Positions 40,485 through 62,501 of a DNA stretch of 64,000 nucleotides are shown one piece after another (the stretch's first letter is position 1; every line of letters begins with the position of its first letter). The notes beneath the pieces are model-generated. The model saw nothing but the letters and a program-made list of their open reading frames with translations, searched no databases and had not been told where the DNA came from. The DNA is from Photorhabdus luminescens subsp. luminescens. GTDB taxonomy: Bacteria > Pseudomonadota > Gammaproteobacteria > Enterobacterales > Enterobacteriaceae. Location: positions 434,001 through 498,000 of the forward strand of contig NZ_JXSK01000002.1 in the NCBI RefSeq assembly GCF_001083805.1, in the 5' to 3' direction. The position numbers and the translations under genes are program-made.

Positions 40485-40497
40485 AAGGAGCAATGGC

Positions 40498-43825: not shown

Positions 43826-44575
43826 TTAATCCGCAGTAACCAGTTCCAATATTTGCTGTCTGACATGCTCGAAAATGAGTTCGCCTATTTCCGCACTTGA
43901 ACCGGATGTTTTAGAAAGAACGCCTCTCGTTGAAAATTCTTTTTTAATCGGTACTTGATAGATCCCAGCACGTGGCGGTTTATCATGATCAGGTCGCTCC
44001 GCTCTCACTAAATCGGGACGCAAATGCAACATTAAACTCGTTTCTGTTAACCCTGCATGCTCAGCATGCCAACCGGGAAAATCTACTAAATGTTCACGAG
44101 TCCAATCATCAGATACCAAACTCCACCAGCTAAATACGATAACGGAACGATCGTTAAAATGTCCCTCCGCCCGTAATGCGTCTACCGCTTCGAAAATAAA
44201 ACCTTCATTTTCAAAATGACCATTAATGATCACCAGTTGTTTAAAAGGTAATGAGCACAAGCTCTTAATTGTTCGGTTGATATAAGCGGTAAATGTTGAT
44301 CCATCCAGGTAAACCGTGCCGGGAAATTCAAGCCCACCTCCACTCTGCGGCAATGATCTGGCAGACACCGGCTGTACCGGCAAGGTGAAACCATTAATAT
44401 CCTCCGCCAACGCCCGCGCGAAAGCTTCCGGGATCACTGAATCCACATTCAATGGCAGATGGGGTCCATGTTGCTCAATTCCGCCAATCGGCCATATCAA
44501 CGTTTTACCTTCAACCGAGGTTAAAACCTGCTCGCTTGTCAGTTCCGCAAATTCTCTAATTTTATTATTATTCAT
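43826..44575 (-). CDS. Creatininase-family cyclic amidohydrolase
   Basis: 249 residues from MNNNKIREF. Creatininase family enzymes hydrolyse cyclic amide or amidine rings using two metal ions. All five metal ligands known from Pseudomonas creatininase occur here, at the same residue numbers: Glu34, His36 and Asp45 in GGIEQHGPHLPLNVD, His120 and Glu122 in INGHFEN. GWHAEHAGLTETSL follows. The start at 44575 has AGGGAT seven bases upstream; a start at 44596 overlapping the previous gene (ATGA) has no ribosome site. Last gene of the biosynthetic operon. I infer it opens a reduced pyrimidine ring made by the two enzymes before it; the true substrate is unknown. Confidence 0.85.
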   Translation of the reverse strand: MNNNKIREFAELTSEQVLTSVEGKTLIWPIGGIEQHGPHLPLNVDSVIPEAFARALAEDINGFTLPVQPVSARSLPQSGGGLEFPGTVYLDGSTFTAYINRTIKSLCSLPFKQLVIINGHFENEGFIFEAVDALRAEGHFNDRSVIVFSWWSLVSDDWTREHLVDFPGWHAEHAGLTETSLMLHLRPDLVRAERPDHDKPPRAGIYQVPIKKEFSTRGVLSKTSGSSAEIGELIFEHVRQQILELVTAD

Positions 44576-44592
44576 GATGTTATCCCTTTTTC

Positions 44593-45462
44593 TCATACTT
44601 TTTCTGACGTCTTGATTTGAGTATATTCATGAACAATGCGCTGCAATGTTTTATACATATGCCGATGCAGGGCAGTATAAACCTGCACCGTATTCGCCCC
44701 TGCCAGCATGTATTCATGAACATCATTACCATCCTGTACACCTCCCGATCCAAGTATTGGAATCATCACCCCTCGCTTACGCAGGTTATAAATAGCGGCA
44801 AGCACCATTGGTTTGATCCCCGGTCCAGAGTATCCGCAAACCCCATTAAGCAGCGCTTCGCCATTCGCTGTGTCGAATGCAATTCCCGAAATGGTATCGC
44901 TCAACGTTATCGCATCAGCCCCCCCTTCTACCGCAGCTTGAACACGCCCATACAAATTATCGCCAAGCGAGAGTTTGACTGCAAAAGGGGTATCCGTTCG
45001 CTCCTTCACCGCTTTGGTGTAGTTGAATACACGTTCAGGTGTATCTTCCGTGAAGTCGTCCGCATGCAAGCATGAAATACCTAACTCCAAAGGGGCATCA
45101 GTGACTTCCGAGATACGAACAGCCAATGAAGCTAACGCCTCAGGCGATTCAGCATGGATAGAAACTATTATCGGAAGCTGTTCCTCCTTAAATTCGCGCA
45201 GAAGCGTTAACCAATAATCAACGCTTTTCTTCGAATACGTCGTATTGTTCAACATCCCTGTACTGAACAAGTAGGTCTTTTCTGTATGCAATTTTTCTGA
45301 GCGCGGGTAAATCGTTTTTGTCACGACCGCCCCTGCGCCGTGAGCGATGAACTGGCGAATATTTTTAGCTTGATCAGAAAGCAGACCCGACCCAACAATA
45401 ATTGGGTTTTTTATCTTCATACCTAAAACATCATAGGTTGGTTCAACAACTTGATTTTCCAT
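44593..45462 (-). CDS. Dihydropyrimidine-dehydrogenase/dihydroorotate-dehydrogenase-like flavoprotein
   Basis: 289 residues, FMN-binding TIM barrel. The order VGSGLLSDQAKNIRQFI, GAGAVVTKTIYPR, LGISCLHADD, PFAVKLS, DAITLSDT and the phosphate-binding GSGGVQDGND is that of class 1 dihydroorotate dehydrogenases and of the C-terminal part of dihydropyrimidine dehydrogenase (PreA/PydB). There is no ferredoxin extension. Start at MENQVVEP follows GGGGT; a TTG-initiated extension of ten residues is less likely. Sandwiched between a CMP-N-glycosidase-like gene and a creatininase-like gene, it is probably a reductase for a free pyrimidine such as cytosine or uracil (inference). Confidence 0.8.
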   Translation of the reverse strand: MENQVVEPTYDVLGMKIKNPIIVGSGLLSDQAKNIRQFIAHGAGAVVTKTIYPRSEKLHTEKTYLFSTGMLNNTTYSKKSVDYWLTLLREFKEEQLPIIVSIHAESPEALASLAVRISEVTDAPLELGISCLHADDFTEDTPERVFNYTKAVKERTDTPFAVKLSLGDNLYGRVQAAVEGGADAITLSDTISGIAFDTANGEALLNGVCGYSGPGIKPMVLAAIYNLRKRGVMIPILGSGGVQDGNDVHEYMLAGANTVQVYTALHRHMYKTLQRIVHEYTQIKTSEKV

Positions 45463-45558
45463 CGTAACCCCACAAATTACCCATTCCAGCAAACTTGCTA
45501 TCTAACCCGCCTTTCAATTTAATAGAGAGGCGGTATATCCTAAAAAGACGCTCAATAG

Positions 45559-46047
45559 TTACTCAACTGCAAAATTCCTGAAAATATCGCTAATTTGTCC
45601 CGGATTTCGACGGAAATCGTGAATATCCAATTTCGACAAATTGCAAATGTGTTCCAATCCCTTCAACAAATGACTGCCGCCACGCACAATCGGTAGTTGA
45701 GTGATCAACAAGACAGGCCGTTTCAGAGCAGAAGCCCAACCAAGTTCAATATGTGTACCGTCAGTACGCAATAATTCATCACCTTGAAGAACCGGAAGAA
45801 TAGGCATGAAAAAATCACACTGCTGCATCCATTGGAAATCCCGTTTCGATACCATCTCCGGCGTATAATGGGGTGTATCAATGCCGAATTTCTCGGTCAA
45901 ATGTGCCGAAAATACCCTGCCGTTCAGTGCCTCTACCGTCTTAACCGCCAATTGAATGGTCATTCTCAACTCTTCATGAAAACCACCATCGTAAATTGCG
46001 GATTGGATCGGCCCACCGATGAAAACGCTTTTATTTGCCAACGACAT
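45559..46047 (-). CDS. BlsM/MilB-type CMP N-glycosidase-like protein (nucleoside 2-deoxyribosyltransferase superfamily)
   Basis: 162 residues. Nucleoside 2-deoxyribosyltransferase fold: N-terminal SVFIGGPIQ, then FSAHLTEKFG, then KRDFQWMQQCDFFMPILP, and the nucleophile Glu101 in GTHIELGWAS. These segments line up with MilB and BlsM, which hydrolyse CMP or hydroxymethyl-CMP to the free base in mildiomycin and blasticidin synthesis. I infer it liberates cytosine (or another pyrimidine) from its nucleotide. Seventh gene of the operon, 129 bases after the aminotransferase. Confidence 0.78.
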   Translation of the reverse strand: MSLANKSVFIGGPIQSAIYDGGFHEELRMTIQLAVKTVEALNGRVFSAHLTEKFGIDTPHYTPEMVSKRDFQWMQQCDFFMPILPVLQGDELLRTDGTHIELGWASALKRPVLLITQLPIVRGGSHLLKGLEHICNLSKLDIHDFRRNPGQISDIFRNFAVE

Positions 46048-46176
46048 AACGCTCTCCTTAATTTTCTTTACCCAACAGACTATGAGCCGTCGTTTCAGAG
46101 CACCGAATTCAGCACAGCCAGAGGATAGGATGCCTGATAATTCAATAGGTTATCGCTCACAATAGGCCAGTTTGAT

Positions 46177-47967
46177 CTAGCTATATCGAGGAAGCAGGTT
46201 GTTTTCCTCAAGTTCATCCAAGCTATCTACAAATGCCAAATAAACTTTTTCCAGATGAGTGTCATCATGTGCATCAGAGATAAACCAACAACGCCATTCC
46301 CAGATATAAACCCCTCTCATCAACAGGTTGTAGTAAAGCAAATCCATGTTGTCACGATGGACTAATCTAAAAAATGAGGAAAACGATCTTACTTCGATGG
46401 GAACCCGACGACTTAAGAACAATTGATTCAAACGTGAAACAAACCATTCAGTACGCCGAGTCAATGCGTTGGTAAAAGATTGTCCTCTCCTCTTAATCTC
46501 CAGCAAAGCGGCCTTCGCAGCGGCCATGCAAAGCGGATGTTGAAAATAGGTCCCGCCAAAGAATGTCGGCTCCGCTGCGGGGAAGCTATCATCGTTGAAA
46601 TTCCAGTTTCCACCGTCAATCGAATCCAGCATATTTTTCCTGCCGGTAATGACGCCCAATGGCATTCCACCACCTATCGTTTTGCCATAAGTCACAATAT
46701 CCGCTTCAATGCCGAATAACCCTTGGATACCGGCAGGATGGGTTCTGAAACCTGTCACAATTTCGTCAAATATCAGCAGAATATCTAATTCTCTGGTCAC
46801 TTGACGCAAACGTCGCAAGTAATCTGGATTGCTCAGTCCTGGGTCACGAGTGGGTACCGGCTCGACCAACACCGCAGCGATATCAGTGCTATTCGTTTTG
46901 AGAAACTCAATGGCTTCATTGGAACCAAACTCAAACACCGAAACATCCGCAACCATATTTTCAGGTATGCCCACTGAAACAGGCTTTGTCGTATTAACTT
47001 CATCATATTCACTGGCTCTCGCCAGTACCGCATCCCAATGCCCGTGATAACTGCTAGAAAAAAGCACAATATGATTACGACGAGTAAGCGCCCGCGCGGC
47101 CCGAACCGCATTCATCACTGCTTCCGTTCCACTATTGACAAAAGCAACGCGATCCATGCCAGTAATCTCTTTGATAAGTTCAGCCACTTCTAAGCCTATC
47201 TCATGCCGGGTTCCCAAACCAAAACCATTGTCTATTTGCTGAGTGAGCGCTTTAACTACAAAGGGTGGACTATGACCAAACAGATGCGCGCCAAATCCCA
47301 TCGTCATATCAATGTAATCATTACCATCAATATCCTGGACGATAGGCCCGGCAAACTTGGTGCAAACAATCGGGTAAAGTAGCTCCTTTATGGACGGTTT
47401 AAAGCCAATCCCAGAACGGCTATCCGCAATATTTTTACGTACCGCTACCGAATGCGTTTTTGATTTAATCGTTCGCTCGTTATATTTAGCTATGAATGAA
47501 ACCAGATATTTTTTTCTCTCCTCAGATTCAATCGGTAGCGCACTTCTCGACATCCATTGAAAAAAGCGTTCTTTCTTAGCCGGTGGAATATCTGGCGTAT
47601 CGGGTTGATCAAGCCTTTTTTCTTGATCAGCCAAGACCGGTTGAGGTCGAATTACCGCATGGTTATCTTCCACAACATTATTTTTATCTACCGTAATATC
47701 GTTTTTACCTGTCGTAATACTGTTTTTATTCGCCATCAAGATATATTCACTGAGTTGACGAACCGTTTGTAATTCTGCGAAAAATTGCCGTACTGAAAGT
47801 TTTATACCAAATCGTTTATGGATAGGCTCCAATGCTTCGAATAACAAAAGTGATTCCGCGCCTAATTCAACTAACGGTATTTCCAGTTTTATCTCTTCTT
47901 TGGGTAAACCAAATGTTTCTGCAAAAATAGAGATTATTTCTCTCTGAATAATTTCAATATCACTCAT
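46177..47967 (-). CDS. ACP-aminotransferase didomain protein
   Basis: 596 residues. An acyl carrier domain at 1-78 with phosphopantetheine Ser39 in LGAESLLL, a low-complexity Asn/Asp/Gln-rich linker, then a class III PLP aminotransferase of the glutamate-1-semialdehyde type (about 165-590). PLP motifs seen: NSGTEAVMNAVRAAR, SSYHGHWD, LLIFDEIVTGFR and the Schiff-base Lys near 428 in TYGKTIGGGMPLGV. Such on-line aminotransferases, as in iturin/mycosubtilin synthetases, convert a beta-keto acyl-ACP to a beta-amino acyl chain. Here it follows a lone ketosynthase, fitting beta-amination of the polyketide product. Confidence 0.9.
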   Translation of the reverse strand: MSDIEIIQREIISIFAETFGLPKEEIKLEIPLVELGAESLLLFEALEPIHKRFGIKLSVRQFFAELQTVRQLSEYILMANKNSITTGKNDITVDKNNVVEDNHAVIRPQPVLADQEKRLDQPDTPDIPPAKKERFFQWMSRSALPIESEERKKYLVSFIAKYNERTIKSKTHSVAVRKNIADSRSGIGFKPSIKELLYPIVCTKFAGPIVQDIDGNDYIDMTMGFGAHLFGHSPPFVVKALTQQIDNGFGLGTRHEIGLEVAELIKEITGMDRVAFVNSGTEAVMNAVRAARALTRRNHIVLFSSSYHGHWDAVLARASEYDEVNTTKPVSVGIPENMVADVSVFEFGSNEAIEFLKTNSTDIAAVLVEPVPTRDPGLSNPDYLRRLRQVTRELDILLIFDEIVTGFRTHPAGIQGLFGIEADIVTYGKTIGGGMPLGVITGRKNMLDSIDGGNWNFNDDSFPAAEPTFFGGTYFQHPLCMAAAKAALLEIKRRGQSFTNALTRRTEWFVSRLNQLFLSRRVPIEVRSFSSFFRLVHRDNMDLLYYNLLMRGVYIWEWRCWFISDAHDDTHLEKVYLAFVDSLDELEENNLLPRYS

Positions 47968-48017
47968 ATCAACCTCACTTTCCTCAAAATGAAGACGATC
48001 TCTACCGGTTTTACAGC

Positions 48018-49718
48018 TCAGATTGCCGTTCTTTCAAATGGATAAGTTGGAAGCGGGAGCCGTTTACGATATTCGTTCTGGTAAAAAATATCCCAATTGA
48101 TACTTCCCCCCGCCTGCCAGACAGAAGCAGGCGAAATATACCTCTCTTGTAGTTCACTCAATTGAGGGGCTGCCACCAAAGATTTATCTAGCAGGCCTAA
48201 TTTCAGTTCATGGATATCACGCGCGACAATCGCCTTGCGTATGAGTAAATGTCGTCGTCCACGCTGCAAAGTAAATGCCACATCAGCAATATTCGCTGCT
48301 GGGTACCGTTCAAAATATTTCACTAAATCCAACATTTTTTGCGCTAATGCCGCCTCAGTACGCGCACTCAGCGGGATCAGATGTGCGGCCGCCAAGGAAG
48401 GCATGTCAGGCTTTGTCGCCGGTGGTTCGGCAACGACAACATGAATATTGGTGCCGCCGATCCCAAACGAGCTAACACCAGCAATTCTCGCGGCCTTATC
48501 GTTATCCCAATCTCTGGATTCAACAGGCACATAAAATGGGGACTCAAGGTCCCGCAGTTCAGCACAAGGAGATTCACAATTCATTGATGGCGGAATAATG
48601 CCTGAATTGACAGCATAGATAGCTTTTATCAGCCCGGCGATACCTGATGCGCAATCAGCATGACCAAGATTGGATTTAATCGAGCCTAAAGCACACGATC
48701 TGGCCGATACGCCAGCAAATACTCGTCCTAGCGCCCGTAATTCAATCCCATCACCAACGGGTGTGCCAGTCCCATGCGCTTCAATCAAACCAATTTGATC
48801 AGCTCGGACATCAGCCGCCGCAAGCGCACGACGGATCACTTGCTCCTGACCAGAAATACCCGGCGCGCTATAACCCGCCTTGACAGCCCCATCGTTGTTG
48901 ATTGCCGATCCTTTGATAACCGCTAAAATCGGCTCGCCATTAAGCAGAGCATCCTCCAGACGGCGTAATACCACAAACGCGGCGGCATCAGAGAAAATCG
49001 TACCGTCAGCTTTCTCGTCGAATGCGCAAACTCGTCCTGTCGGAGACAATATTCCCCCTGCATGGTAAACATAGCCAACATGAGCGGGATACCTGACGCA
49101 AACGCCCCCTGCCAGCGCCATGTCACTTTCACCTAACAACAAACTGTTGCAAGCCATGTGCACAGCAACCAATGAACCTGAACAAAAAGTGCCTACACTG
49201 ACAGCAGGTCCTAAACAGTTGAGCTTATACGCCACACGCGTTGCCAAAGCATCTACAGAACTTCCGCCAAATAGCAGCATAGCGTCGGCAGGAGAATGGT
49301 TCAGCGTCGATACATCAGCCTGCCAGGTACTCCGACGAGAACCGACAAACACTGAACAGATCCCTGCGTCTGCCCCGCTGGAATAACCACTCAGTTCAAG
49401 GGCCTCATGGCAAACCTCCAGACAAATCCGTTGCTGGGGGTCCATTTTAGAAACTTCTCTCGGCATTATTTGAAAATAGCTGTAATCAAATGCCTCTGGA
49501 TTTTTGAGGTACGCACCACGCGGAACGTAATGCCATCCGCCTTCGTCCGCATCAATGCCCCGACTATGAAGTTCTTGATTGGTATAACTCGAAATCAGTT
49601 CCCGTTTCCCTAAGATCGCATCCCAAAGATCTTGACTCGAATCCGCATTAGGAAAACGTCCAGCTATGCTGGTAATCGCAATATCTGTTGAATCATGCAT
49701 TTGTGTTTTTGATTTCAT
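48018..49718 (-). CDS. Stand-alone polyketide ketosynthase
   Basis: 566 residues: a ketosynthase (about 10-440) and the usual post-KS linker, then it stops at a region ending KRLPLPTYPFERT, the typical post-AT/KS dimer linker end. No acyltransferase, KR or carrier domain. Catalytic triad intact: Cys179 in GTFCSGSLVAV (unusual context; DTACSSS is normal), His315 in EAHGTGTPVGD and His353 in NLGHADCASG. It should decarboxylatively extend a chain on a separate ACP, most simply that of the next gene's ACP-aminotransferase. Confidence 0.93.
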   Translation of the reverse strand: MKSKTQMHDSTDIAITSIAGRFPNADSSQDLWDAILGKRELISSYTNQELHSRGIDADEGGWHYVPRGAYLKNPEAFDYSYFQIMPREVSKMDPQQRICLEVCHEALELSGYSSGADAGICSVFVGSRRSTWQADVSTLNHSPADAMLLFGGSSVDALATRVAYKLNCLGPAVSVGTFCSGSLVAVHMACNSLLLGESDMALAGGVCVRYPAHVGYVYHAGGILSPTGRVCAFDEKADGTIFSDAAAFVVLRRLEDALLNGEPILAVIKGSAINNDGAVKAGYSAPGISGQEQVIRRALAAADVRADQIGLIEAHGTGTPVGDGIELRALGRVFAGVSARSCALGSIKSNLGHADCASGIAGLIKAIYAVNSGIIPPSMNCESPCAELRDLESPFYVPVESRDWDNDKAARIAGVSSFGIGGTNIHVVVAEPPATKPDMPSLAAAHLIPLSARTEAALAQKMLDLVKYFERYPAANIADVAFTLQRGRRHLLIRKAIVARDIHELKLGLLDKSLVAAPQLSELQERYISPASVWQAGGSINWDIFYQNEYRKRLPLPTYPFERTAI

Positions 49719-49792
49719 GTTAATTCTCTTTCCCGAACATGTTGGTCTTGCTGATCTTCGCTAGAGCACACCGCCTTGATTACGCTTTTTTT

Positions 49793-52700
49793 CTATTTGC
49801 ATCGTTTTTTCTCTACTTGCATCGTAAGAGACGCCACAGTGCTCGATTCGAAAAGATCAACCATAGATACCGCAACATTAAAATGAGCATTAACTTGTCT
49901 CACCAACTCAGCCCCGACCAGTGAATCTCCCCCTAAATCGAAAAAGTTCGATTCATGATCAACAGCGCAGCGCAGTACACCGCTCCAAATGGCTGCCATA
50001 TCATCGATAATGGATTTATTTGATGCCGAGGGAGATGCCATTGCCGGCTGTGCCGTATCCGCTGGCAGTGAATTTTCCACAACATCATGCAACCGCTCAT
50101 TCAAAGGTAAGGCGGAGACGGCAAAACGCGGCTCTGCATGGCAGGTGGAGAAAATAATATCCAACGCATTAACGACATCGGCATGACGTAACGGGCGAGC
50201 ACGATTTACGCTGTATTTGAAGCTATTCGATTCATCCCAACCTTCCCATCCATCCCAATCAATGGCGAAATAGGGTTTATCCAAATGGTGGGTTGAAGCA
50301 AATGCAGCACAAGCTTCGTTTGCCGCAGCATAAGGCGCAAGCCCCAATCCCCCCGCGAACACTGACAGAGACGAGATAAAACAGCCAAACCTCAGCGGGC
50401 GATCGGCGAATATTTCATGCAAAACAGCAGCCCCTTTTAACTTTGGCTGCATCAACTTTTCCCAAGCGTGATGGTCAGAATTTTGCAGCCACCGGATCGC
50501 TGCCTGACCAGAAAGCCCGGCGGCATGGATAAAACAATTCGCTGCCCCCAGTCTGGATTCCACGCGGGCAAGTTCCGCCAGCACATGGGCTTTGTCTGTC
50601 ACATCAGCGGTAATCACGGCAAAATCCGCCCCCATATTGCGCAATTGCGCTATCCGTTGGCTCTGCAACGTATCAGACTGAGTGAGATCTCTGGATGTCT
50701 GGCCGAGCAGGATAAGTTTCGCGTTAAACCTGGTGACCAGATATTGTGCAATGCCAAAACCAACCGTTCCTAATCCTCCGGTCACTAAACAGATCATGTC
50801 TGATGAAATATTTTCGCTAACGACTGGGTTTACAACGTCAAAATAGCGTTCCCAACGCCAACCTTGACGCATGGCAACCGTGTTCTGATCACGGGCAGTG
50901 AAAAGCTCAGCCACGATATATCGAGCATCATTAAGACAGCTAAGCTCTTTAGCAGGTATGTCGATAACTTTCATTATTATGCCCGGCAATTCCTGGCTGA
51001 TCGCCGAAATGGATGCTAGCGCCGTAGCCCGTTCAATGTTCCGTGGTTCGCTGCCCATCACGTCAACAAAACCGGGACCGATCAAGGTTAACGATATGGC
51101 CCTATTTCCCATTTGGGAAAACGCTTTTACCCAATTAAATAGCGTAAATGGGAATCGATCTTCCTCTACCGGCACGTTATCCGCTGACGGGATATCACCC
51201 AAAATAAAGAGGATATGATCTGGTGTATGCGCTTGTTGCTCCTTCAACCTTAGCATCAAACGCTGAACACTGACGGGATCATTAACGTCGATGATAAACG
51301 CTGTATCATCGAAAGCTGTTTTATGGAAAGCTGTTTTATGGGGAGAAAGGACACAATTTTCATGCACTTCAAACACGTTTTGCCCCAGTTCACGCAGTAC
51401 ATCCGCGATCGGGCAAATTTCTTTACCGCTGTTATCGTAGAAAATCAGCCAGTTACGCTTAGCCGCCGATGATGATACCGGGGACAAGCGCTGTGTTCGC
51501 TTCCAACGTTCAACATAAACGCCGACTGACTGGTCAGAAGTTTCAGAGTTTGCTATCGGCTGACCAGTATGAGGTTCTGGTTTGTACTCGGTTAATGTCG
51601 AATCTGTGTACCAGCAGCGCCGACGTTGCAAAGGTTGAACCGGTAGTGGAATACGTTGAACAATTTCCCCATCCCGCAATATCGACCAATCTATTACCAA
51701 ACCACGTTGCCAGAGCTTGCCGACCAGTTTGACCAAAACCGGATCGTGCTCTTCATAAACAACATCCAAACGAATAATGTTTTCAGGGTTTGCAACGATT
51801 GCAGAGAAACTATCAGACGAATAGTCCAAAACTAATATCACATCATTTGCTGATATGACTTCATTGTGTTGCGGTAAGCTCGGAAAATCTCCATTAATTA
51901 ACATCGCCTTTACATTATTGCCATCAATCATGCCGTGATGTTTAGACCAAAAACTTCCGGGTAAAGCTATACCACACTCAGCGAAATTACCACGCTCAGC
52001 AAAATGCGGTGTCACATTTCCTAGCAACTTATCAACGATTTCAGGCAGTGTCAGCATACCTAGCGAGCAAGCAACAGCAAGGTCATAACGACTATCGGAT
52101 ATGATGAATATTGGCGTCGAGATCATCTTCCGCCAACAATTGATCGCCGCGATTATCGCCACAAGATTGGCAATTTCTCCCTTATTGCCATTATTTTCTG
52201 TCATTTCAGTGATATCGATTTTACCGATGCTATGGGAAATATCGGTCGGCAATTCAGCAAGCAACCTATCCACTTCTTGCCAATAGCCAGGCATCTGCAT
52301 TGATAAAGCGGATCGAATAGCAGGACCGAGCGCCATCACCAGACGTTGCGGTTCAGAGATTTGTGCAGTGACGGTGAAATCCGCATTTCTGATACCATCA
52401 ATCAACATTTTCACATCTTTAGCATACAAACAGGCTCGATATGGCTGAGCTGCACGACCTTCCGCATAAGTAAAAGCCACTTCATCAATATGTGTATCGG
52501 GTTTAGCCTCCAGCATTTTTGCCAAATTAGTACTCAATGTGTTCAAGGCATCAGCATTGCGTCCCCCTAACGGAATGGCTCGCCAGCCAATGCTATTTTT
52601 ACCTGACCTTCGTACCGGCGCTTGCTCCAAAATCATGTGAACATTGCTGCCGCCGGCGCCAAAAGAGCTCACTCCTGCCCGTCGTGGCCCTTTCACCGGC

Positions 52701-53905
52701 CAGTTGATGGGAGTGGTGTTGATAATGAAAGGACTTCGCTCAAGATTCATAGCAGAGTTGGCCCTGCTGAAAGTCGGATGCGGCGCAATGGTACCGGTCT
52801 TGAGCGCCATGATCGTTTTGGCTAATCCGGCAACGCCAGCCGCTGCCGCTAAATGCCCCACGTTAGCCTTGATCGATCCCAACGCACAAAATCTCTCACG
52901 ATCCGTATTCTGGCGGAAAGCCTGACAAAGCGCGGCATATTCTACTGAATCCCCAAGCGGCGTTGCGGTACCATGCGCCTCGATCATCCCTAATTCATCC
53001 GGCCCAATCCCGGCGAACGCCTGAGCATCCAAAATGAGTTTTCGTTGCCCATCTACCCCCGGCGCCGCAAAGCCAGCCCGCGCTGAACCATCATTATTTG
53101 CCGCTGAACCGAGGATCACCGCATGGATGGTATCCCCATTGCTAATCGCTTCATCCAATGGCCGTAGCGCCACCAACCCCGCCCCATCGCCAAAGAAAGT
53201 CCCTGATGCCTTCTCATCGAACGGTCTACAATAGCCATCCTCTGAGAAGATCATATCGTTCTGATAAAAATAACCCGGTCGAGAATAGGCATACACAGAA
53301 ACACCACCAGCGAAAGCAATCTCGCATTCACCAAGCAAGAGGCTTTGTATCGCCATATGTACTGCTGTCAGGGATGTCGAACAGCCGGTCAAGACGGCCA
53401 CACTTGGCCCGTCAAAACCGAGTTTGTATGAAATCCGTGCCGGGAGATAATCCTTATCATTAGTCAGCATGAGCTCTGTCCCCATTAATGAAACCAGATC
53501 ACACTCAGATTTAATGACATTAGGCAAATAAGTATTCATCGAACTGCCGGTAAAAACCCCGATACGCGGGCGCCGGAAAGGATTACCATAACCCGTCACT
53601 TCGGCCAGTTCCCATGCGCATTCAAGCAGCATTCGATGTTGAGGATCGAGCAATTCAGCTTCTCGCTGGCTGATTGAAAAGAGATCCGGGTCAAACAGAT
53701 CAATATCCGGTAAACACGCATCGACAGGAACATAATTTTTTGCCGTGAATATATGCCGTGCTACCCCAAGGCGAATCAGCTCTTCCTGACTATATCTTTT
53801 AGCAAGTATTCGGCCTGCAACAAGATTCTCCCACAGCGCATCCAAGCTATTCGCCACAGGTAACCGACAAGTTACGCCAATGATGGCAATCGCATTATCA
53901 GACAT
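49793..53905 (-). CDS. Type I PKS module KS-(degenerate AT)-KR-ACP
   Basis: 1370 residues. KS at 1-430 with Cys175 (TGCSTSLTAV), His311 (EAHGTATPLGD) and His351 (NVGHLAAAAG). Residues about 530-690 resemble an acyltransferase skeleton but the GHSxG nucleophile elbow is replaced by ISDSRYDLAV near 603 and no catalytic His motif is visible, so it is a decayed AT or docking region. KR at about 850-1235 with cofactor motif VTGGLGTVGFG near 1040 and active Ser/Tyr in SSLSVF and YAAANEA. ACP at about 1290-1365, Ser in LGGDSLVG near 1327. Overlaps the NRPS gene by eight bases, so the two are co-translated. Malonyl loading must come in trans. Confidence 0.93.
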   Translation of the reverse strand: MSDNAIAIIGVTCRLPVANSLDALWENLVAGRILAKRYSQEELIRLGVARHIFTAKNYVPVDACLPDIDLFDPDLFSISQREAELLDPQHRMLLECAWELAEVTGYGNPFRRPRIGVFTGSSMNTYLPNVIKSECDLVSLMGTELMLTNDKDYLPARISYKLGFDGPSVAVLTGCSTSLTAVHMAIQSLLLGECEIAFAGGVSVYAYSRPGYFYQNDMIFSEDGYCRPFDEKASGTFFGDGAGLVALRPLDEAISNGDTIHAVILGSAANNDGSARAGFAAPGVDGQRKLILDAQAFAGIGPDELGMIEAHGTATPLGDSVEYAALCQAFRQNTDRERFCALGSIKANVGHLAAAAGVAGLAKTIMALKTGTIAPHPTFSRANSAMNLERSPFIINTTPINWPVKGPRRAGVSSFGAGGSNVHMILEQAPVRRSGKNSIGWRAIPLGGRNADALNTLSTNLAKMLEAKPDTHIDEVAFTYAEGRAAQPYRACLYAKDVKMLIDGIRNADFTVTAQISEPQRLVMALGPAIRSALSMQMPGYWQEVDRLLAELPTDISHSIGKIDITEMTENNGNKGEIANLVAIIAAINCWRKMISTPIFIISDSRYDLAVACSLGMLTLPEIVDKLLGNVTPHFAERGNFAECGIALPGSFWSKHHGMIDGNNVKAMLINGDFPSLPQHNEVISANDVILVLDYSSDSFSAIVANPENIIRLDVVYEEHDPVLVKLVGKLWQRGLVIDWSILRDGEIVQRIPLPVQPLQRRRCWYTDSTLTEYKPEPHTGQPIANSETSDQSVGVYVERWKRTQRLSPVSSSAAKRNWLIFYDNSGKEICPIADVLRELGQNVFEVHENCVLSPHKTAFHKTAFDDTAFIIDVNDPVSVQRLMLRLKEQQAHTPDHILFILGDIPSADNVPVEEDRFPFTLFNWVKAFSQMGNRAISLTLIGPGFVDVMGSEPRNIERATALASISAISQELPGIIMKVIDIPAKELSCLNDARYIVAELFTARDQNTVAMRQGWRWERYFDVVNPVVSENISSDMICLVTGGLGTVGFGIAQYLVTRFNAKLILLGQTSRDLTQSDTLQSQRIAQLRNMGADFAVITADVTDKAHVLAELARVESRLGAANCFIHAAGLSGQAAIRWLQNSDHHAWEKLMQPKLKGAAVLHEIFADRPLRFGCFISSLSVFAGGLGLAPYAAANEACAAFASTHHLDKPYFAIDWDGWEGWDESNSFKYSVNRARPLRHADVVNALDIIFSTCHAEPRFAVSALPLNERLHDVVENSLPADTAQPAMASPSASNKSIIDDMAAIWSGVLRCAVDHESNFFDLGGDSLVGAELVRQVNAHFNVAVSMVDLFESSTVASLTMQVEKKRCK

Positions 53906-56900
53906 CTTGTTCCCCTTTTAGCAAATGAGTTTGTTTCTCCTTCAACGCTTTTCTTGCATTCAACGTTTTCTGACGTCGCGTTTGGGTTGATTTATCCGCA
54001 ACGTCTACCGGTGTTATCGGTTGCAGAGGGCTTAAAAAATAATTAGCTAACTTTCGAATAGTTGGAAAACGGAATAAGTCTGAAAGGGCTAAAGTGTCAC
54101 ATCCCGGTAATTGCACGAGCTGTGCATGGATTTGCGTCAGTGCCAATGAAGTACCGCCAATATTAAAAAATGCATCATCCAGCCCGACGGTTGCTCTTCC
54201 CAACACTTCACACCAAATTCTCGAAATTTCAGCGAAAATCGAATCAGCAGGTAACACAGGCGCCAGTCTCAACGAACTGATATCGGTCAATTGCCCCGCT
54301 TTAATCAAGCCATTTAATGTTCTTCTGTCGATTTTGTTGTGAGCATTACGCGGCAATTCATCAGCCAGCATAATCCTGCCAGGTAACATGTAGGTGGGGA
54401 GATAAGCTCTGAGATGATCGCGAATAGCGGATTCGTCGGGAAGGCTATCCTTACTGACAGGTACGAATATGGCGACTAAACGATCAAGCCCTTCGTGAGA
54501 TTCAATAATAACGGCAGCGTCCGCAATAGCATGATGGCGATTGAGACAATCCTCAATTTCAGCAATTTCAATTCGATAACCCGAAACTTTTACCTGGTCA
54601 TCCACACGGCCGCAAAAATGGATTCGTTCCCCATCCCAATAGGCTAAATCACCGGTTTTATAGATACGTCCATGATGAATATAGGGATCAGCAATGAAAC
54701 ACTGATTAGTTAACTGTTCAAGACCAACATAACCACGGGCAACGCCACGACCGCCAATGTAAATTTCGCCAATCTCACCTATCGGAGGTGTTTGCCCCGC
54801 AGGATTTAACAGGTAGACCGTTGCGAAATTTAACGGTTTACCAATGGGGATCACATTGTAGTCAGTCAGCTCTTCCGTTACTTTCTCCACGGTGGTGTAA
54901 ATTGTTGCCTCTGCCGGGCCATACATATTCCACAATGTCCACCGCGTATTCAAATAGGGCCGAATCGTGGCGCTGAGTAGCGCTTCGCCACAAATTACCC
55001 AATGCTTTATCGCATAAGACCTTGGCCGCGCCTGAAACTCAGATAACAGGCTTTTCAAACTGGATGGCGTCTGGGTGATAATCGTTACCTGCTCTGCCGC
55101 GATAAGATCCAGCAATTTGTCAGGTTGGTTGCGTATATCATCGGGCACAATGACTAAAACCCCGCCAGAACACAGAGCGCCCCAAATCTCCCACACAGAT
55201 AAATCAAAACTGGCTGCATGGAACCAAGTCCACACCTCGCCTGACGCGGGGGACAAATATTCGTCCATTGCCTTAAAACAGGAAACAACGCTGCTGTGTT
55301 CAACATCAATGCCTTTGGGAATCCCGGTGGAACCCGAAGTGAAAACACTGTATGCAATCGAAGCGGGCGTGCAATGATTAAACGTAGCATGATCAAATGT
55401 ACCGTGATCAACAGGCCCTGACGCCAGAGAGGATTCTGTAGCCGCAATGGTCATCAGCTTAGCTTTACACTCGTTATCTGGGTCAACATCAGCGTTAACA
55501 ACGATAAGCTTCATCTCTGATTGCTCGACAATCTGCGCCAGACGGTTCTGCGGCAACCGGGGATCTAACGGTACGTATCCCGCGCCCGCACGCATAATAC
55601 CAAGCATAGCCACCACCGCTTCCAGTGAAGGCAACAATGCAATCCCGACGCGATCGCCGGGCACAACTCCATTTTGGATAAGCTGAACAGCGACCTCCAA
55701 CGACCAACGCTGCAAATCCAAATAAGTTAATGTATCGGCGCTATAACGAATCGCTACTGACGCCGCTTGTTGCGTCACCCGTTGATCAAAAAGCGAAACG
55801 AGGGTTTGGTTTGACACTTCCGGGAGAACACCAGAATTAAGCGGACCAGATGGCAGATTGTAATCCTCTGATTTGGGCGCCAACAAAGTATTAATCTCTT
55901 CATCAGGGTCTGCGATCAGCATTTCAATCGCCTGTTTGAAGCGCTCTGCAAATATCCGCAGGCCTAAATGCGAGAAAAAATGTTTATCCGCTTTAAACTC
56001 GCATCTTAAGTAGGAACCTGCATCCAAAAACAACAGTTCAATATCAAGCAAGCCTTCCTGCTGACAAACCCTGAATGGGGAAATAGTCCGTCGCGCCCAT
56101 GATGCCTGAACAGAATCATCAGCCATCTCCAGCGCTACCCAACGCGATTGCCCCACCTGCCCTAGCATATTCACCGCAGCCTGAAATAATGGGTTACGAT
56201 CATCATATCGTTCCACAGCCAGGTGTTCGACAATTTGGCTGAGACAAAAATTTCGATTATCAAGAGCCGATAACAATTGCTCCTTCGCTGCCAATAGAAA
56301 GTGGTGAAATGTCTGTCCGACGGATAAACGTATGGGCAACGTATTAAACAAGCAGCCGATAATGTGCTGATGAACCGAGTGACGCATTGATACCGGCACC
56401 CCCATAACGATATCGGCAGCTTTTGTCTCTCTGGCAATGTAAGCACTCCATGCGGCCAACATGACCGTAAAGACCGATCCACCTATTTTTGAAGCAAGCC
56501 GCTTGATTTTTTTGGTTGTCTCTTCACCAATACTAAACAGAATGGATGACTTGTCATTAGGGCCTTTGCGCCAAAAACTATCCCATTGCAACACGGCTGG
56601 CGGCTGCTTTAAACATTCACTCCAATAAGCTTTCGATTCTTCCGCCGCTTCGCTTTGGTAATACTCTTGCTCTTTGACTGCATAATCCTTGAAATCCTCA
56701 GCGGGAGGTAACCAAGAATCGTCATCTTCGCCAAGTTCAGCCAGATAATAGTGTTCAAGCTGATCCCACATCAGCCCCATTGAAGTAAAATCCGACACAA
56801 TATGGTGAACACACATATGTAAAACGTATTCTTCCGCACTGACCACGTAGATACCGAAACGCAGACACGACGCTTTTTCTAATTGAAAAGGGATGGAATG

Positions 56901-57224
56901 AAAGTTCTGCACTGCATCTTCAAGCGCCTCCTGGCTCAAGTTCGTTGCATCGAAAACCTCCAATACCGGCGGTAAGTGTTCGTTAATGACCAACCTTGGC
57001 TCGCCATTCACATTAACGAAAGTGTTTCTCAGGATGGCATTCTTGGAAACGAGCCGGTTGACCGCATAGCGAAAAGCATCGATTTGAAACGATCCGTGAA
57101 TACGGAATGCCATGGAAATATTATATTTGGAATCGCCAGGGGTATAATTGTCAATGAACCATAAAGCTCTTTGCTGCATGGACAGCAATTCTTCATCACC
57201 AGTCTGTGGGCAATTTTTATACAT
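53898..57224 (-). CDS. NRPS module C-A-PCP
   Basis: 1108 residues. Condensation domain 10-445 with HHIVSDF (His140, His141, Asp145; the usual final Gly is Phe). Adenylation domain about 475-965: A3 FTSGSTGIPKG, A5 NMYGPAEATIYTT, A7 YKTGDLAYWDG, A8 GRVDDQVKVSGYRIEIAEIE and the catalytic Lys in AHNKIDRRTL. PCP with Ser1026 in IGGTSLALT. The eight-plus-two specificity positions, mapped by eye on GrsA, read D-L-W-T-V-C-M-I-Y-K; I cannot match this to a known amino acid. The C-terminus (residues about 1065-1108) is a basic linker leading into the PKS by an eight-base gene overlap. Confidence 0.94.
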   Translation of the reverse strand: MYKNCPQTGDEELLSMQQRALWFIDNYTPGDSKYNISMAFRIHGSFQIDAFRYAVNRLVSKNAILRNTFVNVNGEPRLVINEHLPPVLEVFDATNLSQEALEDAVQNFHSIPFQLEKASCLRFGIYVVSAEEYVLHMCVHHIVSDFTSMGLMWDQLEHYYLAELGEDDDSWLPPAEDFKDYAVKEQEYYQSEAAEESKAYWSECLKQPPAVLQWDSFWRKGPNDKSSILFSIGEETTKKIKRLASKIGGSVFTVMLAAWSAYIARETKAADIVMGVPVSMRHSVHQHIIGCLFNTLPIRLSVGQTFHHFLLAAKEQLLSALDNRNFCLSQIVEHLAVERYDDRNPLFQAAVNMLGQVGQSRWVALEMADDSVQASWARRTISPFRVCQQEGLLDIELLFLDAGSYLRCEFKADKHFFSHLGLRIFAERFKQAIEMLIADPDEEINTLLAPKSEDYNLPSGPLNSGVLPEVSNQTLVSLFDQRVTQQAASVAIRYSADTLTYLDLQRWSLEVAVQLIQNGVVPGDRVGIALLPSLEAVVAMLGIMRAGAGYVPLDPRLPQNRLAQIVEQSEMKLIVVNADVDPDNECKAKLMTIAATESSLASGPVDHGTFDHATFNHCTPASIAYSVFTSGSTGIPKGIDVEHSSVVSCFKAMDEYLSPASGEVWTWFHAASFDLSVWEIWGALCSGGVLVIVPDDIRNQPDKLLDLIAAEQVTIITQTPSSLKSLLSEFQARPRSYAIKHWVICGEALLSATIRPYLNTRWTLWNMYGPAEATIYTTVEKVTEELTDYNVIPIGKPLNFATVYLLNPAGQTPPIGEIGEIYIGGRGVARGYVGLEQLTNQCFIADPYIHHGRIYKTGDLAYWDGERIHFCGRVDDQVKVSGYRIEIAEIEDCLNRHHAIADAAVIIESHEGLDRLVAIFVPVSKDSLPDESAIRDHLRAYLPTYMLPGRIMLADELPRNAHNKIDRRTLNGLIKAGQLTDISSLRLAPVLPADSIFAEISRIWCEVLGRATVGLDDAFFNIGGTSLALTQIHAQLVQLPGCDTLALSDLFRFPTIRKLANYFLSPLQPITPVDVADKSTQTRRQKTLNARKALKEKQTHLLKGEQDV

Positions 57225-57338
57225 AACGTGTCAAGCTCCATAAATACTTAAACAGTATCCCCACCCTCTAGCTAAGCCAGCCTCGTTACAGAGAGGGCAA
57301 AGTTTGTGCTTGGTGTTACTCCATCAGCCAACGGCTCG

Positions 57339-59030
57339 TCAGAAATAGCGTTTCAGCTTTTCAACCAGCTCAGAAATGCTACAGTCGTCAAAAAAGACCG
57401 ACATGGGGACTAATTTCCCAATGATCCCACGCAACCGCTGAGCAATCGTAACCGCTGACATGGAGTCCATATCAATCTCACTCAACTTCGTGTCGGCAGT
57501 CACATTTCCTCCTGCAACCAATTTTTTCAGCTCTTCTATCACTATTTCAGTCATTGCCTGCCGTTGCTCCTCATGGGAAGGTTTCTCAGGCGTGACCATA
57601 GCATCATCGCTTTGCGTAGAACCGAAAGCCGCCGACTCTATATCATTCACCGGCTCTTGCTGGTAAATCATCCGCTCCAGAGCAACCTGACTAAAGTTTC
57701 CAGCAATCAACCCGGCATAATGGGGAATATCCGCTCTGATGACGGTATCCATGATATTTTTAATATCACCCCCAGGCTCCCAAGCAATCGCCGTACCTGG
57801 TAACCCAATCGCAACCCGATATCTCATCAAAGCATCCACGAATGCATTCGCGGCAGCACATGCCCCCTGACCTGCAACGCCAATAATCTCTGATAGTGAA
57901 GAAAGTGTAATGAATCTATCCAGACTTAACTCTTGAGTTGCCAGATGCAGGTTCCAGACTCCCGCTATTTTCGAGCGGAAAACTTTTTCAACCGAACGGC
58001 TGTTTAACGTGGTAAGCAGAGCATCTTCAACAACGCTTGCCAAGTGGTAGATCCCCCGTAAAGGGTGACCTGTTCTATCAATACGTCGCAACACCGCTTT
58101 GACGTCTTCAATATCGGCTACATCACCTTGGAAAAAATGGAGATTGCAACCTTGTGCTTTTCGCTGCTCAAACTCAGTGATGAAATTAGCCGGCGGAGCG
58201 GAGCGCCCCATCAACGTGACGTGTCTTGCCCCGGCCGCAAACAGCCTCTCGGCCAGCATACGCCCAGTATCGCCAAATCCGCCGGTGATAAGATAGTTTG
58301 CATTCTGTTTTATCTCCGCCTGTTCTTGGCTAACCACTAACGGCCCAACCTGACGCTGCCAAGTACAGTGATCGCGAATGAGAAACTCTCTCTGTTCATG
58401 CTTAGTTGTCATGACAGCAAGAACCGATGCTATCTCTTCATCGCCAACCTGTTTAACCGGCAAATCAATCAAGCCAACTTCAATAGCGGGATACTCTTTC
58501 GCAATAACCCGGCCTAATCCCCATAAACCACTGCCAGACAAACCTACCGTATTAAATTGCTCGCCAGACACCTGTACACCTTGGGTCAGGACCCAAAGTT
58601 GCGGTTTTGCTTCGTGATGGCGCTCAGCAATTCTGTTAGCGATAAGACGTAAACTTTCGAACTCACGTAATTCATGCGCCGCAATATCCGCAGCGTTCAA
58701 GAATTTCTCGTGACTAGCTAAATAGATCAGGGTGTCCGTGTTCCCTATTGAGTCAATTTGAGAAGCAGGATTTGCGCCAAGATCAATACCAACAACATCA
58801 ATTCCCTTCGCTCCAATCAATTCCTTCACATGGCGAGTAAAATCGGCGTTTCTGCTAATGACAGTACATTGAGTTAATAATGAAGCATTGGTCAATACGA
58901 TATTACGTTTCACCCAATCCAGATTGAATAGTTGCATGCCACTCTTCTCCAAATCACGAAACAAAACATCACACGTGTAGCCCGTTTTAAGCTGCACATT
59001 ATCAAGACGTATCAGGCTTTCATCCCCCAT
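57339..59030 (-). CDS. KR-ACP didomain protein with defective KR
   Basis: 563 residues. Residues about 40-240 form the structural KR subdomain, then the catalytic subdomain with YLITGGFGDTG near 246 and Ser378/Ser380 in LSSLSEIIG. The invariant Tyr (YxxxN) is replaced: the motif reads GQGACAAANAF with Cys391 (codon TGT) where Tyr should be. So ketoreduction is unlikely. An ACP follows (about 490-560) with Ser523 in EIDMDSMSA. It has no KS or AT, suggesting that it acts as a carrier or scaffold, or as a dehydratase-like or product-template role that is not obvious from sequence. Second gene of the operon. Confidence 0.88.
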   Translation of the reverse strand: MGDESLIRLDNVQLKTGYTCDVLFRDLEKSGMQLFNLDWVKRNIVLTNASLLTQCTVISRNADFTRHVKELIGAKGIDVVGIDLGANPASQIDSIGNTDTLIYLASHEKFLNAADIAAHELREFESLRLIANRIAERHHEAKPQLWVLTQGVQVSGEQFNTVGLSGSGLWGLGRVIAKEYPAIEVGLIDLPVKQVGDEEIASVLAVMTTKHEQREFLIRDHCTWQRQVGPLVVSQEQAEIKQNANYLITGGFGDTGRMLAERLFAAGARHVTLMGRSAPPANFITEFEQRKAQGCNLHFFQGDVADIEDVKAVLRRIDRTGHPLRGIYHLASVVEDALLTTLNSRSVEKVFRSKIAGVWNLHLATQELSLDRFITLSSLSEIIGVAGQGACAAANAFVDALMRYRVAIGLPGTAIAWEPGGDIKNIMDTVIRADIPHYAGLIAGNFSQVALERMIYQQEPVNDIESAAFGSTQSDDAMVTPEKPSHEEQRQAMTEIVIEELKKLVAGGNVTADTKLSEIDMDSMSAVTIAQRLRGIIGKLVPMSVFFDDCSISELVEKLKRYF

Positions 59031-59207
59031 ACGTCAAATTTTATGCCTATGAACCTGCTAACTCTCCCACATTCCCCTTCGCACATTTACTAACGCTAAC
59101 TCTTCAACCAATCAGCAATGATCAGCGCCAGAGAGCGACAGCGCTACTACTTACACAACCATAAAATGATGCAACCATAAAAAGCGAAAAAACGGTGGGA
59201 TATGCTA

Positions 59208-60521
59208 TTAATAACCAGAGAAAAATGGCTGTTCAATTCCAAGTTCTCCAATCATTTCTAACCAAAGGTCCATTAAACGAGGGGGTAAAATCTGTAGATG
59301 GCAATCTGGCCTGGAAGAAATAGTAACCTCCATCGTATCGGCATAGATCTCTATATCCATGCTCAATGGTATCTCTTGCGACTCATCATCGGGTTTCCCA
59401 ATACGTATTTTTTCAGGCGACAGTTCATAACCAATAACATTGGGAGACCGTCGTTGATCACCAACGAAATTGAAAGAAATTGCGGGAAGTTCAGGCCATC
59501 CAAAGATGGAATTAGGCACAAAGTAAGTCGCAGCATAATCCGCCGCTTTTTCCATCGTGTTATTGAACTCTTGTACCGCATGCTGGAGAGTGCTATCCAG
59601 CGATGACTCTGGATCAATATTAAATTTAACTTTGATTGGAAATGATACTGACCCGACAAGATTAGCCACCGAGGTTTCCCAATACCCCACAAAATGAGGA
59701 CTGATCCACAACAGCATATTCAGGCTGCCCTTCCCAAAAACAGCAGCTAGTGCCTTTAACCAACTACCTAACAACAAATCCGCAATACTGACACGATGTC
59801 GCTTAGCCAAAAGACGTATCCTATTTAAGGCTTCGCCATCAAGCTGCCTGACTTCTGTTACGGCCTCAGACAATCTGCTAATGGGTAGTGACTCAACACT
59901 CCGACCACCAAGAATATTCAAGGTAGGCTGTTCAACTTGTTGTTCATCATCAGGGATAACAGCTTTTACGATTTGCCGGTGTCGTTCATACAACTCAGCG
60001 CAAAATTGCTCATAATTTGCGGCATGCTCAAATGCAAGGGGCTGACCACTCACTGACATTCTGTATGCCTTTGAAAGATCGCGCCATAAGATCCTGCTGG
60101 AAATACCGTCACAAACCAGATGATTGAATATCAATACTAATCTTTGATCACGGGCACAATCGCCATCAAACAGGCAGTAACGCAATAACGGCGGATTTGC
60201 CAAATTCATGGCAGCCCTAACCTCAGCAATGTAGTTTGATATTAAGCGTCGGCGATCACATTGACTATCGGTTTGCTCTCTGACTTCAAAAGCCTGATGC
60301 AATAATTCACTGTCAGGCGGCACGAAATCCATCTGCATATCCATCCCGCTACCGACAAATCGTGCTCTCAGAACAGAATACTTATTCAATAGATATTCAA
60401 TCGCTACCTTGAGGTGTGCCGGTTCCAATCGCTCCAGGGGCATGAGTACTTCACCGACACATAATTGATCAACTCTCAGCGAATATCGCAAATCATATAA
60501 TTGCCCTAATTGAACACGCAT
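59208..60521 (-). CDS. Stand-alone NRPS condensation-like domain protein
   Basis: 437 residues from MRVQLGQLYD, preceded by AAAGGTGA. A single chloramphenicol-acetyltransferase-fold condensation domain: active-site motif NHLVCDG (Asn133, His134, Asp138, Gly139), where the first His of HHxxxDG is Asn but the catalytic second His is kept, plus the late motif ISFNFVGD. No adenylation or carrier domain. Free condensation domains join a carrier-bound acyl group to a soluble or trans-loaded amine; in congocidine-type pathways such enzymes replace normal NRPS chain release. First gene of the operon. An upstream ATG at 60599 has no ribosome site. Confidence 0.88.
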   Translation of the reverse strand: MRVQLGQLYDLRYSLRVDQLCVGEVLMPLERLEPAHLKVAIEYLLNKYSVLRARFVGSGMDMQMDFVPPDSELLHQAFEVREQTDSQCDRRRLISNYIAEVRAAMNLANPPLLRYCLFDGDCARDQRLVLIFNHLVCDGISSRILWRDLSKAYRMSVSGQPLAFEHAANYEQFCAELYERHRQIVKAVIPDDEQQVEQPTLNILGGRSVESLPISRLSEAVTEVRQLDGEALNRIRLLAKRHRVSIADLLLGSWLKALAAVFGKGSLNMLLWISPHFVGYWETSVANLVGSVSFPIKVKFNIDPESSLDSTLQHAVQEFNNTMEKAADYAATYFVPNSIFGWPELPAISFNFVGDQRRSPNVIGYELSPEKIRIGKPDDESQEIPLSMDIEIYADTMEVTISSRPDCHLQILPPRLMDLWLEMIGELGIEQPFFSGY

Positions 60522-60860
60522 AATATTCACCTTTCCATTGCAAGCCCTGCGGGCAGAAGCGAAATTAAGACGTTGTGCAGACTCCACATTCTTCTGCATA
60601 CAAACTAATCGGATAACACAGCGTTTACTTTTGACAACCAGAGAAAGCGAACATGCAGAGTAAAAAAACGGGAATTGATAGCCCGGCTACCCCGCATGGA
60701 ATGATAATTAGCGTCATTTATTAAGGTACTAAAAATACAGTGACAATTTTAAAAGTAGCAATAAAAAAAGAAACCTCCACGAATCAATCCAGATATTTGA
60801 GCTGGACCAAAATAATTAATACATTATTACTATCAAATAAGTAATTTGGTTAACGTTTTG
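60522..60860. promoter_or_regulatory. Upstream region of the biosynthetic operon
   Basis: About 340 bases with no gene between the condensation gene and the IS630 remnant. It is AT-rich and should contain the operon promoter on the minus strand, but I could not fix a -35/-10 pair or an operator. Confidence 0.4.
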
Positions 60861-62486: not shown

Positions 62487-62501
62487 ATTCTCTCCGTTAA
62501 T

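Follow-up and report, generated by a model that had tools for sequence, protein, structure and literature searches.

The window analysed here, a 64,000-nucleotide stretch of the Photorhabdus luminescens subsp. luminescens genome (contig NZ_JXSK01000002.1, positions 434,001 to 498,000), contains an operon of nine open reading frames (ORFs), all on the minus strand at 43826-60599, in which a nonribosomal peptide synthetase/polyketide synthase (NRPS/PKS) line is joined to a trio of genes encoding an N-glycosidase, a dihydroorotate dehydrogenase (DHODH)-fold flavoprotein and a creatininase-family hydrolase. The trio is a conserved cassette, and the Photorhabdus line is collinear with a longer line present in two Pseudomonas genomes. 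Judging from its genes, the operon probably makes a sperabillin-type amide in which 3-aminopropionamidine is linked to a 3-amino-5-hydroxy acyl chain. The chemistry is known in kind; the cassette, with its predicted ring opener of creatininase fold, is common to Proteobacteria, Actinobacteria and a conjugative-type Agrobacterium plasmid.

The nine genes, their single strand and their order, as given in the initial annotation of this DNA, are borne out by the ORF listing and Pfam domains. In order of transcription these are condensation (C)-like; ketoreductase-acyl carrier protein (KR-ACP); C-adenylation-peptidyl carrier protein (C-A-PCP); ketosynthase (KS)-KR-ACP; KS; ACP-aminotransferase; N-glycosidase-like; DHODH-like; and creatininase. 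Each of the nine frames is uninterrupted in the window, neighbouring genes are spaced by -8 to 177 bases, and the final two genes share 4 bases; the earliest in-frame ATG of the first gene, P0009, lies at 60599, where the initial annotation took 60521.

59208..60599, minus strand: P0009, free-standing condensation-like protein (Pfam Condensation, 61 bits)
57339..59030, minus strand: P0008, KR-ACP protein (Pfam, motif check, relatives)
53898..57224, minus strand: P0007, C-A-PCP NRPS module (Pfam, A-domain pocket alignment)
49793..53905, minus strand: P0006, KS-KR-ACP PKS module (Pfam; KS and KR motifs intact)
48018..49718, minus strand: P0005, KS protein (Pfam; catalytic motifs intact)
46177..47967, minus strand: P0004, ACP plus class-III aminotransferase (Pfam, motifs)
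45559..46047, minus strand: P0003, CMP N-glycosidase-like protein of the GGPIQ clade (Pfam Nuc_deoxyrib_tr below cut-off, PDB matches, tree)
44593..45492, minus strand: P0002, DHODH-fold flavoprotein, predicted cytosine to dihydrocytosine reductase (Pfam DHO_dh, motifs)
43826..44596, minus strand: P0001, creatininase-family hydrolase, predicted dihydrocytosine ring opener (Pfam, motifs)
43822-43807, minus strand: terminator-like hairpin directly after the last stop (hairpin scan)

The three-gene cassette and its distribution

P0003 scores 26.8 bits against Pfam Nuc_deoxyrib_tr (cut-off 28.8), and the six distinct sequences that it matches in the PDB at E<=1 are all N-glycosidases of cytidine monophosphate (CMP) or hydroxymethyl-CMP; this upholds its description as a BlsM/MilB-like CMP N-glycosidase, and no salvage deoxyribosyltransferase, the kinship that the initial annotation had regarded as damaging, is matched at that threshold. 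A tree of 47 sequences (the window, three PDB chains and 43 of the 46 loci described below) sets a GGPIQ group of 38 apart from the group of MilB and BlsM (support 1.00), and within the former pairs the Photorhabdus protein with that of Pseudomonas sp. S30 (0.98) and then with that of Streptomyces netropsis (0.92). P0003 shares with MilB, BlsM and BcmB the fold family and MilB residues Glu62, Asp78, Gly99 and Glu103, conserved in 38/38 GGPIQ sequences; unlike them, it belongs to the separate clade, in which Phe22 is replaced by Ile and position 23 is Gln in every member, so that the window reads F-I-G-G-P-I-Q where MilB and BlsM have F-L-(G/A)-(G/A)-P-F. In the passages of PMC4081090 on MilB, Glu103 is catalytic and Glu62 and Asp78 are base/ribose contacts, with Glu62 touching the 4-amino group.

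Thirteen GGPIQ loci are without the DHODH and creatininase genes, and in 12 of them the N-glycosidase gene lies beside relatives of four genes of locus L035 (a weak cytosylglucuronate-synthase match, a DegT aminotransferase, a kinase-like and an ATP-grasp-like gene); the exception, L045, is cut by a contig end. The cytosylglucuronate-synthase match, scanned in L035 only, is 41.8 bits against a cut-off of 300, and the presence of its relative next to the N-glycosidase in 12/13 trio-less loci points again to cytosine, which by these sequence comparisons is likely the N-glycosidase product with and without the trio.

P0002 scores 166 bits against class-1 PyrD (cut-off 269) and 107 bits against PreA (cut-off 335), far below both. 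The initial annotation had called it dihydropyrimidine-dehydrogenase-like; the flavoprotein fold stands (Pfam DHO_dh), and the implied nearness to PreA does not, since PyrD scores higher. Nor is it plain PyrD, the outcome that had been named as fatal to the proposal: its score is below the curated cut-off and its substrate motifs are altered, with ELGISCLH and LSDT in place of the ELNISCPN and MINT of PyrD, so that the ELN-SCPN and IN(T/S) signatures of the housekeeping enzyme are absent. The only other DHO_dh match in the genome is a separate gene on contig C10, its own PyrD. The altered form, EL-G-ISC-(L/I)-(N/H) with SD(T/S), is found in 24/24 trio loci. We take the changed positions to match the PyrD Asn residues that bind orotate, and an Asp at such a position would suit the amino group of cytosine.

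P0001 matches Pfam creatininase (PF02633) with 189 bits and TIGR04448, creatininase sensu stricto, with 206 bits, below the curated cut-off of 235. The initial annotation had credited it with all five metal ligands, which we take to be E-H-D and H-E, and every one of these positions is retained in the window; the ligand motifs EQH...D and NGH(F/Y)E are present in the window and in 24/24 trio loci, as are the longer forms EQHGPHLPL-VD and NGH(F/Y)ENE together with SWWS, GWHAEHAG and SGGG. The suggestion that a creatininase fold has here replaced a dihydropyrimidinase proved wrong: because the pyrrolamide-type cluster of S. netropsis carries the same creatininase (51% identity), the enzyme is the cassette's own predicted ring opener and no substitute. 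By our reasoning creatinine and dihydrocytosine have an O=C-N=C-NH2 unit in common; attack at C2 would yield a carbamate and then CO2 and 3-aminopropionamidine, so a ureidopropionase would be unnecessary and a ureido cap unlikely. The ureido-capped block proposed earlier is thus unsupported, since opening of the dihydrocytosine ring would yield a different product if the amidine survives. Elsewhere in the genome, a candidate dihydropyrimidinase came down to one weak TIGR02033 match (24.9 bits against 393.25).

A pattern-based scan of the genomes of 84,980 species with P0003 gave 46 loci, 24 of which contain all three trio genes, 23 of them in the order N-glycosidase, DHODH, creatininase. The search for the trio in other genomes that the initial annotation had proposed therefore succeeded in both Proteobacteria and Actinobacteria: the 24 are from eight Photorhabdus, Pseudomonas sp. 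S30, Chromobacterium haemolyticum and 14 actinobacteria, among them Streptomyces, Kutzneria and Amycolatopsis. The closest named P0003 records are from Photorhabdus, at 94% identity and below. Annotation of trio contexts outside Photorhabdus covered L024, L023, L048, L050, L026 and L087, and left out L025, L028 and another nine loci from Streptomyces.

In pyrrolamides of the congocidine/distamycin type, the 3-aminopropionamidine block derives from CMP. The S. netropsis locus (L024) has the trio in the same order as the window, at 51-54% identity, along with genes for a LuxR regulator, a free-standing C domain, a UDP-sugar dehydrogenase, an epimerase, a glycosyltransferase, a DegT protein and an ABC transporter. 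Another strain of this species has pyrrolamide clusters with free-standing C domains, and 3-aminopropionamidine is one of two precursors common to pyrrolamides, according to passages of PMC4047045; that the trio occurs in a species with such compounds supports an amidine product. The operon thus resembles congocidine and distamycin clusters in the trio, the gene order, the nearby free-standing C domain and the predicted shared precursor, and differs from them in its NRPS/PKS-built chain and in having no sugar-nucleotide or pyrrole-type genes among the nine. In Streptomyces noursei (L048) the trio adjoins homologues of AmcH, AmcF, AmcE and AmcC, all over their cut-offs, a combination of the trio with amc genes of amipurimycin/cispentacin-type clusters that presumably fits amidinomycin, in which the acyl part differs from that of the operon. 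The passages of PMC10698177 on amc, the amipurimycin cluster, do not mention an amidine.

Further settings of the trio were noted. Of seven records from a plasmid search, the one neighbourhood examined was that of Agrobacterium tumefaciens plasmid NZ_CP116695.1, typed conjugative, where the trio together with an adjoining MATE exporter gene takes up L087:7187-11187, in the gene order of Chromobacterium, with identities of 52% (DHODH), 47% (creatininase) and 41% (N-glycosidase); diaminopimelate-decarboxylase, 2OG-Fe oxygenase and LuxI/LuxR-type genes are nearby. In C. haemolyticum (L050:8293-13243) the trio is reordered and has as neighbours a MATE exporter gene and a gene that gives a short match to lysine-2,3-aminomutase. 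In Amycolatopsis coloradensis (L026:1376-18068) it sits in a further unassigned cluster, amid genes for A-PCP, KS, amine oxidase, luciferase-like, condensation and chorismate-binding proteins. A literature search combining the trio family names with NRPS found nothing, and the passages of PMC9177418, a survey of Photorhabdus and Xenorhabdus biosynthetic gene clusters, make no mention of the operon.

The assembly line and its longer Pseudomonas form

P0003 matches occur in 3/398 Pseudomonas genomes. Pseudomonas sp. S30 carries, in order, genes for an MFS transporter, C, ACP-KS-AT-KR-ACP (AT, acyltransferase), KS-AT-DH-KR-ACP (DH, dehydratase), C-A-PCP, KS-KR-ACP, KS, ACP-aminotransferase, the trio and, in reverse orientation, a thioesterase (TE). 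By tblastn, genome G499 has the same gene order, with 39-50% identity to S30 in C, PKS and TE, 63% in MFS, and a trio 66-72% identical to that of the window; the third genome, G397, matches P0003 at 32% and has no trio match above 38% identity within the 13 kb examined. By domain logic, the loading ACP and two extensions of S30, with one DH, would give a C6 acyl chain unsaturated at least once, and the later steps would add Gly or Ala, a hydroxyl, a beta-amine and an amide with 3-aminopropionamidine.

Such a molecule would closely resemble sperabillin (Pseudomonas fluorescens YK-437, Takeda), a C6 unsaturated acyl group on a 3,6-diamino-5-hydroxy acid derived from Gly or Ala, in amide linkage to 3-aminopropionamidine; sperabillins are accordingly the predicted product of both longer Pseudomonas clusters. 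The earlier statement that no described compound fits is countered by sperabillin, which would fit the longer form. From the initial interpretation we keep the shared cassette and the NRPS/PKS line with its ACP-aminotransferase, and drop the creatininase replacement, the ureido cap and the lack of a fitting compound.

Of the full sperabillin-type architecture seen in S30 and G499, the operon is missing both acyl-chain modules as well as the AT, TE and MFS gene, and has the remainder. Over 405 amino acids P0008 aligns (35%) to the C-terminal portion of the second PKS of Pseudomonas, with KS, AT and DH gone; its KR catalytic Tyr is Cys, its ACP Ser motif is kept, and it is apparently a remnant of the two-module acyl-chain PKS. 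Each of the two Pseudomonas clusters has a relative of P0009 in the equivalent position (36% and 41%), and P0009 retains the second His of its NHLVCDG motif. The P0007 A-domain pocket, placed by eye from the GrsA positions and an alignment to LgrA, reads D-L-W-T-V-C-M-I-Y; LgrA, its best match, presumably activates Gly in its second module, and on the strength of this match and the bulky pocket residues we guess that the substrate is probably Gly or Ala. KS, the KR of P0006, ACP, PCP and aminotransferase motifs are intact in the window. Between KS and KR of P0006 no AT was found by Pfam; an AT inside the operon was rejected, the eight acyltransferase matches of the genome all being on other contigs.

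From the genes, their order and motifs, the spread of the cassette and the Pseudomonas collinearity we infer a pathway whose chemical steps, amino acid and product are all predictions. P0003 would hydrolyze CMP to release cytosine, P0002 would reduce cytosine to 5,6-dihydrocytosine, and P0001 would hydrolyze it at the C2 carbonyl, cutting the acyl-N bond in the same unit that is opened in creatinine, after which the carbamate would lose CO2 to leave 3-aminopropionamidine. On the assembly line, the PCP of P0007 would hold Gly or Ala and its C domain would acylate this from the P0008 ACP; P0006 would add a malonyl unit and reduce it to the hydroxyl; P0005 would add a second malonyl unit onto the P0004 ACP, malonyl being supplied by an acyltransferase encoded elsewhere; the P0004 aminotransferase would convert the beta-keto group to the beta-amine, and P0009 would condense the ACP-bound chain with 3-aminopropionamidine and so release it. 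A more specific reading, which we put forward tentatively, is that a portable cassette converting CMP to 3-aminopropionamidine by means of a dihydrocytosine acyl-amidine hydrolase feeds a shortened Photorhabdus line, whose product would be an undescribed short- or variably-acylated relative of sperabillin.

If the inferred pathway is correct, it would provide a genetic basis for sperabillin-type antibiotics and explain why no ureidopropionase is needed, and the trio could be used to mine Gram-negative and Gram-positive genomes for amidine natural products. The full Pseudomonas, reduced Photorhabdus and deletion forms also make a natural series for assembly-line shortening.

Reduction in Photorhabdus and competing explanations

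The N-glycosidase gene is present in 9/12 Photorhabdus genomes, six of which have both P0008 and P0009, with a stop counted inside one match in 2/6. Of the other three, G299 has P0009 and no P0008 was found, G300 has P0009 fragments, and G295 has neither; P0009 of G299 was not counted as broken, its stop being near the C-terminal end. G300 and G295 retain ACP-aminotransferase and the trio. The initial annotation did not remark that the Photorhabdus line is a shortened version of the longer Pseudomonas line and is partly in decay. Pairwise dN/dS against the window (no tree-based test; some strains enter twice) is 0.02-0.11 for the creatininase, 0.09-0.15 for the DHODH, 0.08-0.16 for the N-glycosidase, 0.07-0.14 for the aminotransferase, 0.12-0.22 for KS, 0.17-0.22 for KS-KR-ACP, 0.15-0.34 for C-A-PCP, 0.23-0.27 for KR-ACP and 0.17-0.29 for C; the low values of the trio and aminotransferase (0.02-0.16) speak for the proposed pathway. 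In Photorhabdus loci L071 and L074, internal deletions, which may be recent, take KS-KR-ACP and KS; ACP-aminotransferase and the trio remain there free of stops.

Several observations weigh against a sperabillin-type product of a working operon. The nine proteins include no AT or TE by Pfam and no transporter, and the operon has no electron-donor gene for P0002. The KR Tyr of P0008 is absent in 5/6 Photorhabdus copies (it is kept in P. khanii), and G300 and G295 lack KS-KR-ACP, parts of the A domain and KS (entirely or for the greater part); with the line mostly deleted in 2/9 genomes and the Tyr lost, the line may fail in some strains. A hexadienoyl chain needs two dehydrations, whereas the two acyl modules of S30 show a single DH domain, which would have to act twice. 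BLASTP detects no relationship between P0009 and the S. netropsis free-standing C domain (E 0.18), and orthology of the two was rejected. The literature search, in which sperabillin occurs in reference titles only, found no sperabillin gene cluster, and the passages of PMC4047045 name the 3-aminopropionamidine block and neither the trio nor the CMP route.

One competing explanation is that the operon is a decaying remnant of a Pseudomonas-like ancestral line that shed its exporter, acyl modules, AT and TE, and that product formation has ceased. P0008 occupies the place of two Pseudomonas modules, the Tyr is missing, G300 and G295 carry their deletions, P0009 is fragmented in G300, P0008 was not found in G299, and 3/12 genomes have no N-glycosidase; yet all nine window frames are open with the catalytic motifs listed above intact, dN/dS is well under 1 across all genes, and KS, KS-KR-ACP and C-A-PCP are kept in 7/8 named Photorhabdus loci, within locus reach, so we consider this explanation unlikely.

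It is more doubtful still that the trio gives a ureido or carboxamide block, either 3-ureidopropionamide or, via uracil, 3-ureidopropionate and beta-alanine, for loading on the line. Attack at C4, as by dihydropyrimidinases, would indeed give ureido products; the hydrolase, however, belongs to the creatininase family and retains its motifs, no TIGR02033 match in the genome exceeds the cut-off, Glu62, the reader of the 4-amino group in MilB, is kept in 38/38, and the trio occurs in a species with 3-aminopropionamidine-based pyrrolamides. A role of the trio in pyrimidine salvage or in supplying nitrogen, as a mere neighbour of the line, seems very improbable: the trio does persist in G300 and G295 despite loss of most other line genes, but the ACP-aminotransferase is retained together with it, the genome has a separate PyrD, and all six annotated contexts outside Photorhabdus place it among biosynthesis or export genes. 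A sperabillin-type amide thus remains our preferred reading.

Flanking sequence and trio-less clusters

The hairpin after the last stop says little, because terminator-like sites in the region are no commoner than in shuffled sequence (17 against 19.6 expected), and a promoter scan of the region was uninformative (20 promoter-like sites against 31.6 expected). About 2 kb past the operon end lies an MFS-type transporter gene (family assigned by eye; window 40477-41679, plus strand), of which L022 has a 98% identical copy in the corresponding position; we did not count it into the operon. Two minus-strand genes (61335-63860) lie upstream.

A literature search on the cluster typified by L035 gave nothing among the matches listed. 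This cluster (L035:763-10516) and those of L027, L029, L030, L033, L034, L036, L038, L041, L043, L047 and L051 form a related, conserved set in Xenorhabdus, Bordetella ansorpii and one Enterobacteriaceae metagenome-assembled genome, and perhaps encode a cytosine nucleoside antibiotic pathway in Gram-negative bacteria.

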